The notes under the pieces: model-generated
What the model saw: the letters and a program-made list of their open reading frames with translations, nothing else
Told to the model about the DNA's origin: nothing
Databases searched by the model: none
Assembly: GCF_039388985.1 (NCBI RefSeq)
Contig: NZ_CP135021.1
Coordinates: 124,001 to 188,000 of the forward strand
DNA length: 64,000 bases
Direction: 5' to 3'
Source: Buchnera aphidicola (Aphis aurantii)
GTDB lineage: Bacteria; Pseudomonadota; Gammaproteobacteria; Enterobacterales; Enterobacteriaceae
Made by a program: the position numbers and the translations under genes
In this document: one piece after another, positions 3,750-10,621 of the stretch
Layout of the letters: each line of letters starts with the position of its first letter
Numbering within the stretch: position 1 is the stretch's first letter

Positions 3750-3754
3750 CTTAT

Positions 3755-3786
3755 ATGCTAGTCAAGATGTTGACTAGCATGTTTTT
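3755..3786 (+). terminator. Strong intrinsic terminator after aroH
   Basis: A perfect 11-bp stem (3755-3765 with 3770-3780) closes a GATG tetraloop and is followed by GTTTTT. It begins six bases after the aroH stop codon, making it one of the clearest terminators in the window and separating aroH from the thrS operon. Confidence 0.9.
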
Positions 3787-3866
3787 ATTCGTTCAATAAA
3801 TTCAATTTTATAAAATTAAAATTTTTATAAAATATTAAAATATTTATTATTAAAAGGTATATCGGA

Positions 3867-5795
3867 ATGCCTATAATAAAATTTTGTGATGGGAGTAAAG
3901 AAATTTATGAACATTCTATTTCATTAAAAGAAATCTTAAAACATAAAAATCTTAACATAGATCAGTCTCTTATCGCTATTTCTATAAATGGTGTTTTTGC
4001 TAATTTAAATACTTTAATTACAAAAGATGCTTCAATATCATTGATTACTAAAAAAGATGTGTATGCTTTAAGTATCATGAGATATTCATGTATACAACTT
4101 TTAAGCTATTCAATTAAGACAATGTGGCCATTATGTCGAATCGTAGAAAGTCAGATTATAAACGATGGTTTTTATTGTGATATAGATTCAACAGAAAGCA
4201 TTCTTAAAAAAGATCTTGTATTAATAGAAAACAAAATGAAAGATCTTGTAAACAAAAAATATGATATTTTAAATAAAAAAATTTCTTTTAGTAACGCTTT
4301 AAAAGAGTTTGAAAAAAATGAGGAAATATATAAAGTTGATTTTATAAAAAATAATTTTTTAAAAAATGATATAATTTCATTATATTATCATGAAAATTAT
4401 GTAGACTTAGATATTGGCATGCAGGTTTTTAACATAAAATTTTGTAAATATTTTAAATTACAAAAAATTGGAGGCGTTTATTGGAAAGGTAATAGTAAAA
4501 ATAAAATATTACAACGTATTTATGGTACTGCATGGTTAAGTCAAGAAGGATTAAATAAATTTTTAACTTATATTAAAGAAGTAGAAAAAAGAGATCATAG
4601 AAAAATTAATAAATATTTAAAATTATATCATATGCAAGATGAATCTCCAGGTATGATTTTTTGGCATAACAACGGTTGGATTATTTTTAATGAATTAGAA
4701 AGTTTTGTTCGTAAAAAATTAAAAGAATATAAATATAAGGAAGTCAAAACGCCTTTATTAATAGATAAATCAATATGGGGGAAAAGTGGTCATTGGGACA
4801 ATTATAAAGATTCTATTTTTACTACGTTATCAGAGAATAGAGAATATTGTATTAAACCTATGAATTGTCCTGGGCATGTTCAAATTTTTAATATTGGCTT
4901 AAAATCTTATCGAGATTTACCTATTCGTATGGCGGAATTCGGAAGTTGTCATAGAAATGAGTCTTCAGGATCTTTGCATGGTTTAATGAGAGTTCGTAAT
5001 TTTACGCAAGATGATGCTCATATATTTTGTACTAAAGAACAAATACATTCTGAAATAAATAATTGCATTAAAATGATATATGATTTATATAGCACATTTA
5101 ATTTTAAGAAGATTATAGTTAAATTTTCTACTCGACCTAAAAAACGAATTGGTGATGATATAATTTGGGATAGAGCAGAAAAAGATTTATCTGATGTGTT
5201 AGTAGAAAATAATTTAGAATTTGATTATCAACTAGGGGAAGGTGCTTTTTATGGGCCTAAAATTGAGTTTATTCTACAAGATTCTTTAGATCGAAATTGG
5301 CAATGCGGAACAATTCAATTAGATTTTTACTTACCAATGCGTTTGAATGCGTTTTATATTAATGAATATAATGAAAAAAGTATTCCTATAATAATTCATC
5401 GAGCTATATTAGGTTCAATTGAGCGTTTTATTGGAATATTAATAGAAGAATGTTCTGGAAAACTTCCAACTTGGTTGTCTCCTGTGCAAGTCGTAGTAAT
5501 TAGCGTTAAGAATGTTTTTTCTATTTATGTAACTAAAATAGTTGAAAAATTAAATGCCTTTAAAATTCGTGCTGAATCAGATTTAAGAAATGAAAAAATA
5601 GGTCTTAAAATTCGAGAACATAGTTTACGTCAAATTCCGTATATATTAATATGTGGGGAAAAAGAAATTCAAACTAATACAGTTTCTGTTAGAAATAGAA
5701 ATGGAAATAATTTTGGAATGGTGGATATTGATTTATTTATTAAAAAACTGCAAAAAGAGATATTTACTCGTAGTTTTTTTCAAATGGAGGAATAA
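3867..5795 (+). CDS. thrS: Threonine--tRNA ligase with a degenerate editing site
   Basis: Class II synthetase charging tRNA-Thr. Its 642-aa length is identical to E. coli ThrRS. Domains in order: TGS (1-62), editing/SAD (about 63-225), catalytic core (about 240-535) and anticodon-binding domain (about 540-642). The catalytic zinc ligands are kept: C in P-M-N-C-P-G-H, H in L-H-G-L-M-R-V-R and H in I-I-H-R-A-I-L-G-S. In contrast, the editing centre is destroyed: residues 73, 77, 182 and 186, which are H, H, C and H in E. coli, are Y, Q, D and Q here. Aminoacylation should work, but post-transfer clearing of Ser-tRNA-Thr by this site should not. It opens the thrS-infC-rpmI-rplT series; infC starts four bases after its stop. 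Confidence 0.97.
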   Translation: MPIIKFCDGSKEIYEHSISLKEILKHKNLNIDQSLIAISINGVFANLNTLITKDASISLITKKDVYALSIMRYSCIQLLSYSIKTMWPLCRIVESQIINDGFYCDIDSTESILKKDLVLIENKMKDLVNKKYDILNKKISFSNALKEFEKNEEIYKVDFIKNNFLKNDIISLYYHENYVDLDIGMQVFNIKFCKYFKLQKIGGVYWKGNSKNKILQRIYGTAWLSQEGLNKFLTYIKEVEKRDHRKINKYLKLYHMQDESPGMIFWHNNGWIIFNELESFVRKKLKEYKYKEVKTPLLIDKSIWGKSGHWDNYKDSIFTTLSENREYCIKPMNCPGHVQIFNIGLKSYRDLPIRMAEFGSCHRNESSGSLHGLMRVRNFTQDDAHIFCTKEQIHSEINNCIKMIYDLYSTFNFKKIIVKFSTRPKKRIGDDIIWDRAEKDLSDVLVENNLEFDYQLGEGAFYGPKIEFILQDSLDRNWQCGTIQLDFYLPMRLNAFYINEYNEKSIPIIIHRAILGSIERFIGILIEECSGKLPTWLSPVQVVVISVKNVFSIYVTKIVEKLNAFKIRAESDLRNEKIGLKIREHSLRQIPYILICGEKEIQTNTVSVRNRNGNNFGMVDIDLFIKKLQKEIFTRSFFQMEE

Positions 5796-8206: not shown

Positions 8207-10621
8207 ATGAAATTTAGTGAAAAATGGATTCGAGAATGGGTTAATCCCGAAGTAAGTAGTATTGTTTTAAGTGATCAAATTGTTAACTCTGGTATAGAAA
8301 TTGAGTCTATTGAACAAGTAGTTCCTGTATTTAATGGTGTAGTAGTAGGGAAAATAATTTCTTGTACGACACATCCTGTCTTAAAAAATTTAAAAATAGT
8401 GCAAGTAGATGTAGGAAAAAAAAAGTTATTAAACATTGTATGTAAAGCTTTAAATTGTCGAAACCAAATAAAAGTAGCAGTAGCTACTGTTGGTAGTATA
8501 TTACCTAATAATATCAAAATTAATGTAAAAAAAATTTATAACGAAACATCTGAAGGAATGCTATGTTCTTTTTTTGAGCTAGGTTTGTTTAGTTCAAATA
8601 GTAATGAAATTATTGAGGTTCCAGAAAATATTCCAATAGGAACAAATATTAATGATTATTTATTATTAGAAGATAATATTATAAAAACAAATGTCACCCC
8701 TAATCGACCAGATGGATTAAGTATCATAGGTATAGCTCGGAACATTTCAGTTGTAAATAATATGGATATAACTTTATTAAAAGAAAAAGTTAATTCTATT
8801 ACTATTAATAAAAAATTTCCAATCTATAGTAATTTAGAAAAAAAAGATATTAATTTTTTTGGAAGAGTAATTGAGAATATTAATATTAATGTTCCAACTC
8901 CATTTTGGATGAAAAAAAAGTTATTTATGTCTGAAATGTTATCAGAAAATATAATCACAAATATTATAAATTATATTTTAATTGAAATTGGGCAGCCTTT
9001 AAATATATTAAATTCTGATTTAATAGATACTTTTATTCAGATTAACAAAACTCATACTAAATTAGTTTTAAATACACAAAAAGATATAAAAATTATTTTA
9101 GATGAAAACATATTAGGATTTTTTGATAAATCAAAAATATTATTTCTTCCTGGAAATATAAATTCTTATATTTTAGAAACAGATCATAATACTAAAAATA
9201 TATTTTTAACATCATATTCAGTAGATCGAGAATTTATTTTAAATATTTCGAAAATTGTCGGTTTTAATAGAATACTCAATTACCATAGTTATGGTATTGA
9301 TTTTTCTCTTCAAAAGTATGCTTTAGAGTATGCAACGAAATTAATTCTTCAAATATGTGGCGGAAATGCCGGTTTGATTACTTGTTACACAGATAATGAT
9401 TATCTTAAAAATACAAATAAAATTAAATTATACTATAAAAATATTAATAAAATAGTTGGTTTTTTTATTGATTCTGAGATTTTTTTAAATATTTTATTAC
9501 GTCTTGAATATAAAATAGAATCGAAAAAAGGTTATTGGAATGTTATCCCGCCTTCTTGGAGATTTGATATATTAATAGAAGAGGATGTAATAGGTGATAT
9601 ACTTCGAATATATAACTATAATAAAATTCCCTTAATTCCATTAAAAGAAAATTTCAATCGTGACGTTGATAAAAATACAAATGATCTAAAAAAAAATGAT
9701 ATATCTAATAAATTATCAAACTTACTTGTACATAGAGGTTATTATGAAATAATTACTTATCCATTTATTGACCCAGTATTACAAGAAAATATTTTATCAA
9801 AAAATGGAAAAGAATTATTTATTTCTAATCCTATTTCTAAAGATTTTTCTTGTATGCGAATATCGTTATGGCCTGGTCTTATTCAAACTCTTTTATATAA
9901 TATTAATCGGAAACAAGATAGTTTACGTTTTTTCGAGCAAGGTTTATGTTTTTTGATGGATGATAAGAAAAATCTTGGAGTAGATCAAAAAATGTTATTA
10001 GGAGGCGTGATTAGTGGTTTTCATAATAAAGAAAATTGGTTTTCTAAAAGAAGAAAAGTAGATTTTTATGATATAAAAGGTGATATAGAATCCATATTAG
10101 AATTAATATGTGATATAACTCATGATGTAAAAATAAAAAATAAAAAAGTACGTGGATTACATCCCAATCAAAGTGCAAAAATTTTTTTAAATGATAATTT
10201 TGTTGGTAACTTTGGTAAAGTCCATCCAATTTTAGAAGAAAAATTTGATTTAAATAGTAATACGTTTTTATTTGAATTATTAATTGATAAAATTTTTGAT
10301 TTAACAGTTTATAGGGATTATAAAATAAAAGAATATTCTAAATTTCCTAGTAGTCGTCGAGATATTTCTATATTAATATCAGAGAGTACTTCGTACGAAG
10401 ATATTATTAAAGTATGTAAAAATTGTTTAATAGATAAAAAAGTAGATATTAATTTATTTGATCTTTATTCATGTGAAAAATTTTTCAATAAAAAAAGTTT
10501 AGGAATAAGTTTTACTTTTCAAGATGATAAAAAAACTTTAAAAGAAAATGAAATTAATCTTATGCTCGATCATTGCATAAAAACGTTAACAAATAAATTT
10601 CAAATTATTTTAAGGAAATAA
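8207..10621 (+). CDS. pheT: Phenylalanine--tRNA ligase beta subunit with degenerate editing domain
   Basis: Partner of PheS; it binds tRNA and in most bacteria removes mischarged tyrosine. The 804-aa product (E. coli 795) has the N-terminal tRNA-binding EMAP-like fold (about 40-150), B1/B5 and catalytic-like domains, and a C-terminal anticodon-binding ferredoxin-like domain (about 710-804) with F-P-S-S-R-R-D-I-S. The B3/B4 editing region (about 210-370) is highly eroded: E. coli G-Q-P-M-H becomes G-Q-P-L-N (N266), the glutamate in L-L-E-C is threonine (T335), the G-G-I-F-G-G loop is gone and the H-T-D-A-S segment is not recognisable. Proofreading is therefore probably lost, while tRNA binding and subunit pairing are kept. 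GAGGTAAA precedes the ATG. ihfA follows after four bases. Confidence 0.97.

Follow-up and report, generated by a model that had tools for sequence, protein, structure and literature searches.

Replacement of the proofreading residues in a retained editing domain of Buchnera threonyl-tRNA synthetase

Introduction

Does the threonyl-tRNA synthetase (ThrRS) of Buchnera aphidicola still remove serine wrongly attached to tRNA(Thr) and, if it does not, why has the enzyme kept the domain that should do so? The question was raised by the thrS gene of the window (the whole stretch of DNA that was analysed, 64 kb long). The source genome, of 639 kb, is in three contigs; one of these, 7.7 kb long, carries leuABCD and repA and matches 44 plasmid records, every one from Buchnera aphidicola, with ∼86% identity to the best of them, Buchnera plasmids from Aphis aphids. 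The answer that we favour, with a probability of about 85%, is that proofreading is dead on a domain that has been retained, and that the loss is tolerated as a mild error.

Loss of editing by synthetases of host-restricted bacteria is established (Li and others 2011 and Melnikov and others 2018, as cited in PMC7373986 and PMC10057733); the original prediction made for this locus had referred to such reports correctly. Our search of the literature by title and abstract found nothing on editing by Buchnera ThrRS; the work of Melnikov and others (2018) is known to us through the papers citing it.

The thrS gene and its editing pocket

The gene, its parts and the codons of the editing site are listed below.

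3867..5795, + strand: thrS, threonyl-tRNA synthetase, 642 aa; TIGR00418 equivalog match of 655 bits (cut-off 384)
3867..4052, + strand: N1 domain, residues 1-62; predicted fold of residues 1-241 matches 1qf6 and 1tje
4053..4538, + strand: N2 editing domain, residues 63-224; PF07973 at residues 170-219; pLDDT 87; TM 0.89 to 1qf6
4083..4085, + strand: codon 73, Tyr (His in E. coli), from translation and alignment
4095..4097, + strand: codon 77, Gln (His in E. coli), from translation and alignment
4410..4412, + strand: codon 182, Asp (Cys in E. coli), from translation and alignment
4422..4424, + strand: codon 186, Gln (His in E. coli), from translation and alignment
4593..5792, + strand: catalytic and anticodon-binding part, residues 243-642; C334, H385 and H511 intact

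The limits given for N1 (1-62) and N2 (63-224) are those that we take to apply to this enzyme. The gene order thrS-infC-rpmI-rplT-pheS-pheT is the same in E. coli (the other genes of the window were named by resemblance), and the thrS frame (translation 3867-5792) has no in-frame stop. The product has the class II core, the Cys-His-His zinc ligands and the anticodon-binding domain of a bacterial ThrRS, with matches to PF00587 and PF03129, as well as N1 and N2 with the editing fold (PF07973 over cut-off; predicted fold). What it lacks is the signature of an editing-competent enzyme, H73, H77, C182 and H186.

The original prediction had read these four positions as Tyr, Gln, Asp and Gln, had held the substitutions to be real since the chain aligns without gaps, and had found the zinc ligands of the aminoacylation site intact. 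All three statements were confirmed by translation and by gapless alignment with E. coli MG1655 ThrRS (57% identity over 642 residues) and with PDB 1qf6 (642 residues to 642), C334, H385 and H511 being all present. Among the other pocket positions, G95 and Y104 are also changed, while K156 and D180 are kept.

All four residues of the quartet are called critical for editing by E. coli ThrRS in PMC4041444, where the editing kcat is reported to be down >500-fold in C182A and C182S, 7000-fold lower in H73A and 70-fold lower in H186A; the same source proposes a thiolate mechanism for Cys182 and reports that this residue becomes oxidised. According to PMC7302879, Gly95 and His73 hold the substrate and Cys182 touches the 2′-OH. 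Because mutation of the same residues in E. coli cuts the editing kcat 70- to 7000-fold, the editing chemistry of the window enzyme is predicted to be dead, as had been proposed from its sequence, and by this analogy a loss of Ser-tRNA(Thr) editing activity in Buchnera ThrRS is very likely. The likeness to C182A, H73A and H186A lies in the residues changed and in the strong reduction of editing in the E. coli mutants; these, however, are engineered single changes, whereas the window enzyme has all four residues changed and Asp rather than Ala at position 182.

Such an enzyme would charge tRNA(Thr) normally with threonine and, at a low rate, with serine; the rate of serine charging would be set by the zinc-based first sieve, and the serine would not be removed.

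The editing site across the genus Buchnera

Alignment of ThrRS from many Buchnera strains had been named as a way to check the prediction. We observed that none of the 36 genomes of the genus retains C182 or H186. Residue 186 is Gln in all 36 genomes, residue 182 is Asp in 35 and Asn in one, and residue 77 is Gln in 34 and His in two; residue 73 is the variable member of the quartet (Y in 26 genomes, C in 3, R in 3, H in 2, S in 1 and N in 1). All four residues are replaced in 32 of the 36 genomes, the window genome among them. As for the rest of the pocket, K156 is present in 35 genomes, D180 and G184 in all 36, Gly95 in just four and Tyr104 in none.

The quartet YQCQ (residues 73, 77, 182 and 186 in this order) was seen in the symbiont of Pemphigus (L126) and in G125, which group together in a tree built by FastTree on the catalytic and anticodon-binding part of ThrRS. 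This suggests, from the sequences, that the losses of His preceded the loss of Cys182 in Buchnera. In the same tree the genus clade has a support of 0.999 and the deeper branches have mixed support (0.82, 0.62, 0.32, 0.95 and 0.21); as lineages with long branches may attract each other, the number of independent losses was not derived from it.

In the thrS gene of L126 (Buchnera of Pemphigus obesinymphae), which has the YQCQ quartet, two stops lie in frame within the N1 region (501-700). The gene may have an internal start, or it may be breaking down from the N-terminus.

The editing site in other genomes of the family

The loss in the window enzyme had been described as unusually complete. 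The survey of the family gave another picture: the case is one of many, and it is less complete than the deletions found in some relatives. The family search produced a ThrRS match in 149 of 149 genomes. Outside the genus, the editing sites were read in 84 of 147 family genomes, the remaining 63 being each >1.6 Mb. The 28 large genomes (3.7-5.5 Mb) with loci from the family search all have HHCH, and so do 33 of the 35 larger genomes read (>1.6 Mb). The other 49 family genomes, of ≤1.6 Mb, comprise 12 with HHCH, 7 changed at residue 73 alone and 30 that have lost at least one of H77, C182 and H186 or the domain itself. The whole N-terminal part is absent in 11 of these 30, Candidatus Lightella being one of them, and eight other full-length enzymes from reduced genomes have all four residues replaced.

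In the 56 further genomes of the family, the frequency of editing-site loss follows genome size: loss was scored in 26 of 30 genomes of ≤700 kb, in 4 of 19 genomes of 0.8-1.6 Mb and in 2 of 7 above this size. The last two are G063, which is poor evidence (49% complete, with stops), and G074 (HQCH); G150, with stops within the domain, was scored as changed.

In the 11 truncated cases the ThrRS match starts at residues 213-244, and a search of the 1-2 kb upstream (E-value 0.1) revealed no N-terminal remains. For three of them (G056, G122 and G166) the alignment of the family search ran upstream, through stops, to residues 183-201; these stretches are perhaps decayed remains, which would speak against a clean deletion. 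Enzymes without a working N-terminal editing part are known from yeast mitochondria and some archaea (PMC6918089 and PMC7373986), and the 11 truncated relatives are comparable to them; the window enzyme, unlike these, keeps the domain.

A change of residue 73 alone was seen in seven reduced genomes (e.g. L103), with the quartets YHCH (three), RHCH (two), NHCH (one) and QHCH (one). This pattern suggests that loss of the quartet often begins at His73.

Search for a substitute or a compensating change

The original prediction would have been undone by a free-standing trans-editing factor elsewhere in the genome; none was found in the three families searched, PF07973, PF02580 and PF04073. PF07973 gave exactly two matches per genome in all 36 genomes of the genus, in frames with the sizes of AlaRS and ThrRS (the ThrRS frame of G008 is split). 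The D-aminoacyl-tRNA deacylase family PF02580 had matches in none of the 36 genomes, and PF04073 matched once in each genome, in a frame of ∼570-600 codons, the size of ProRS, with no free-standing protein. Lys279 of ProRS, presumably an important residue of this enzyme, is retained in the source genome. In the archaeal case a free-standing editing protein exists, of a family outside those searched in Buchnera. PF08915, which we take to be the archaeal-type editing domain, is likewise outside the three.

We considered a compensating change in the aminoacylation site and compared 390 columns (residues 243-632) with editing loss (38 sequences with loss, 24 with the site kept). Many of the columns associate with editing loss, which is to be expected because the lineages concerned also evolve faster. 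At the 13 positions that we chose as zinc, substrate and ATP ligands, 12 are invariant in the genus; the exception, W434, is Gly in one of the 36 genomes. Two other residues, which we assume to be near the active site, differ between the genus and the 28 large genomes: codon 488 (5328-5330), an invariant Ser in the large genomes, is Tyr throughout the 36 genomes of the genus (rank 13th of 390 by association), and codon 307 (4785-4787), an invariant Thr in the large genomes, is Ser in 35 of 36 (rank 48th); neither of the two ranks is outstanding.

Turning to metabolism, every one of the 36 genomes of the genus has a threonine synthase match over cut-off. PF02826, a dehydrogenase domain found in SerA, was over cut-off in none of the 36, with weaker matches below cut-off in 24. 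Metabolic support for a reliance on low serine is weak.

Editing sites of the other synthetases

The AlaRS of the source genome has H564, H568, C666 and H670 intact. For AlaRS and PheRS the readings cover 30 of the 36 genomes of the genus (those with loci), and the AlaRS quartet is HHCH in all 30. Among the 30 relatives with altered ThrRS, AlaRS has HHCH in 27 and HYCH in one, and is unreadable in two (G041, split over contigs, and G111, with a short frame).

The beta chain of PheRS is encoded downstream of thrS in the same gene run.

8207..10621, + strand: pheT, PheRS beta chain; editing residues changed as H265N, G318N, E334T, T354R and A356L (E. coli numbering)

We take H265, G318, E334, T354 and A356 to be the editing residues of PheRS. 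Among the 30 genomes read, H265N is found in all and G318N in 29; T354 is still Thr in two and A356 still Ala in one, the alignment being weaker around 334-356. The B3/4 domain of the beta chain is retained. In IleRS, LeuRS and ValRS of the source genome (one genome read), most of the residues that we assumed to be key for editing are kept with their surroundings; in LeuRS, T252 and D345 are kept, while D342 and R344 are both changed to Asn.

In E. coli, ThrRS C182A leaves growth unchanged in rich medium or at 42°C, while AlaRS C666A impairs it (PMC6918089); heavier Ser-for-Thr mistranslation, forced by a chimeric tRNA, slows E. coli (same source). That LeuRS, ThrRS and PheRS lose proofreading, as their errors are better borne, and AlaRS does not, has been argued already in PMC6918089. 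Most simply, a reduced cell would be able to bear Ser-for-Thr and Tyr-for-Phe errors at a low level but not Ser-for-Ala; since heavy forced mistranslation harms E. coli, the mildness of Ser-for-Thr depends on its level. Two related domains, both serine-removing in E. coli, thus have opposite fates in one genome, with the AlaRS site kept and the ThrRS site lost. The contrast amounts to a natural ranking of the translation errors that a minimal cell can and cannot bear, in line with E. coli genetics and with the argument made in PMC6918089.

With its editing residues replaced, its aminoacylation residues intact and a genome of 639 kb, the window ThrRS fits the editing-defective class of synthetases from host-restricted bacteria, and Buchnera ThrRS is a well-bounded new case of this established loss. 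Three factors would make the loss tolerable: serine for threonine is a mild error when it occurs at such a low level, threonine is made by the cell itself, and a small population confined to its host is under weak selection. The case resembles LeuRS, PheRS and ThrRS of Mycoplasma, as described in PMC7373986 and PMC10057733, in the small host-restricted genome, in that editing residues are replaced (or the domain is missing) with the aminoacylation residues retained, and in having ThrRS and PheRS among the losses. It differs from Mycoplasma and similar cases in that the replacements are near-uniform throughout the genus and the relative constraint on the dead domain has been maintained, and also in that the source Buchnera loses editing by PheRS but not by LeuRS.

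Retention of the editing domain

In the reading that we prefer, the body of the domain is retained for structure or for binding of the acceptor arm, and sister lineages freed from that need would have deleted it; we propose that the domain stays because it still serves one of these roles. Some enzymes can do without the domain, as the deletions in the 11 relatives show, and this counts against the explanation. Alternatively, a dead site may sit on a domain that has no role left, a relic in decay and heading for deletion. This differs from the preferred reading solely in why the domain persists; it gains from the same eleven losses in related reduced genomes and from the two stops in the N1 region of the thrS gene of the Pemphigus symbiont.

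The measures of constraint argue against a relic. The ratio of N2 to catalytic divergence (mean pairwise) has a value of 2.25 among the 28 large genomes and of 2.49 among 35 genomes of the genus; the distances are uncorrected, so that fast domains are understated and some additional relaxation of N2 could go unseen. Because the two values are close, N2 is not clearly more relaxed than the rest of ThrRS. The corresponding ratios, large genomes versus genus, are 2.79 versus 2.40 for N1 and 1.67 versus 2.12 for the anticodon domain. Median values of domain dN over whole-gene dS (simple counting, 595 pairs) are 0.41 for N2, 0.35 for N1, 0.15 for the catalytic domain and 0.33 for the anticodon domain. 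G008, with its split gene, was excluded from both sets of values. Positions invariant in the genus number 33 of 162 in N2 and 151 of 292 in the catalytic domain, and the editing domain is open in 35 of 35 unsplit genes of the genus.

The fold, too, is confidently predicted. An AlphaFold2 model from a seven-sequence alignment (pLDDT 87) has ThrRS structures as its best PDB matches, with TM 0.89 to 1qf6 and, by target length, TM 0.90 to the editing-domain structure 1tje; the earlier statement that the domain fold is kept is thus borne out at the level of prediction. With both lines of evidence at hand, we regard a relic without a role as unlikely.

A fold like that of the ThrRS N-terminal part is also found, by structure match, in a protein of the mammalian mitoribosomal large subunit, which we take to be mL39. 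mL39 has an N1+N2-like fold that is, as far as known, used without editing; unlike the window case, it is a separate protein and not a part of a synthetase.

The replacements themselves could be read in another way. The site may have been re-tooled, with Asp182 taking the place of the Cys182 thiolate as a base and Gln77 and Gln186 holding the pocket, to give a slower, oxidation-proof hydrolase; the oxidation of the proposed thiolate Cys182 in E. coli (PMC4041444) counts in its favour. The uniformity of the pocket points in this direction: D182 (35 of 36 genomes), Q186 (36), Q77 (34), K156 (35), D180 and G184 (both 36). It also stands out relative to other changed sites, as 105 positions of N2 are invariant in the 28 large genomes, 43 of these have a different majority residue in the genus, and positions 77, 182 and 186 are three of the eight among the 43 that are near-uniform (≥34 of 36); for three of the four quartet sites to fall among 8 of 43 has a nominal P of 0.016 in a test chosen post hoc. 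Such uniformity exceeds what a site free of selection would be expected to show and counts against the preferred reading, as the pocket could still do something. Against re-tooling, the substrate-holding G95 (PMC7302879) is Gly in only 4 of 36 genomes, residue 73 varies, one genome has Asn at 182, nearby lineages in the tree have C, T, S, Y, Q, V, F or a gap at this position, and the E. coli changes at 182 and 73 cost editing >500- and 7000-fold in kcat (PMC4041444). We therefore consider a re-tooled site very unlikely. Just as little probability goes to the more specific proposal of a thiol-free hydrolase selected genus-wide, in which the carboxylate of Asp182, beside the kept Asp180 and Lys156, would serve an oxidant-proof proofreading or another activity on mischarged tRNA(Thr).

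Under the preferred reading of a dead site on a retained domain, we take the uniformity of the pocket to mean that the structure of the emptied pocket, or contact with the acceptor arm, is being maintained. With a uniform Asp/Gln pocket on a still-constrained domain, the purpose of a dead proofreading domain becomes directly testable.

The N-terminal part could also have been kept for feedback by the enzyme on translation of the thrS mRNA, a control that requires this part in E. coli (PMC7373986). The leader is AT-rich, though, and 30 leaders from the genus, compared by eye, share no element except the ribosome-binding site, which makes this explanation highly improbable.

Lastly, an assembly or translation error imitating the substitutions, in favour of which we found nothing, can be dismissed, as residues 182 and 186 are changed in 36 of 36 genomes and the window gene has neither gaps nor stops.

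Some further observations concern single loci. Near a contig end of G008 (contig 1, 3600-5800; L038), thrS and pheT are both split into several frames with stops, owing either to assembly error or to real breakage. ARAGORN found zero tRNA genes in the whole 64 kb window. Between the upstream gene and thrS, at 3753-3790, a strong hairpin is followed by a run of T's, resembling an intrinsic terminator; by eye, a hairpin with T's before thrS is seen in many, not all, of the 30 leaders of the genus.
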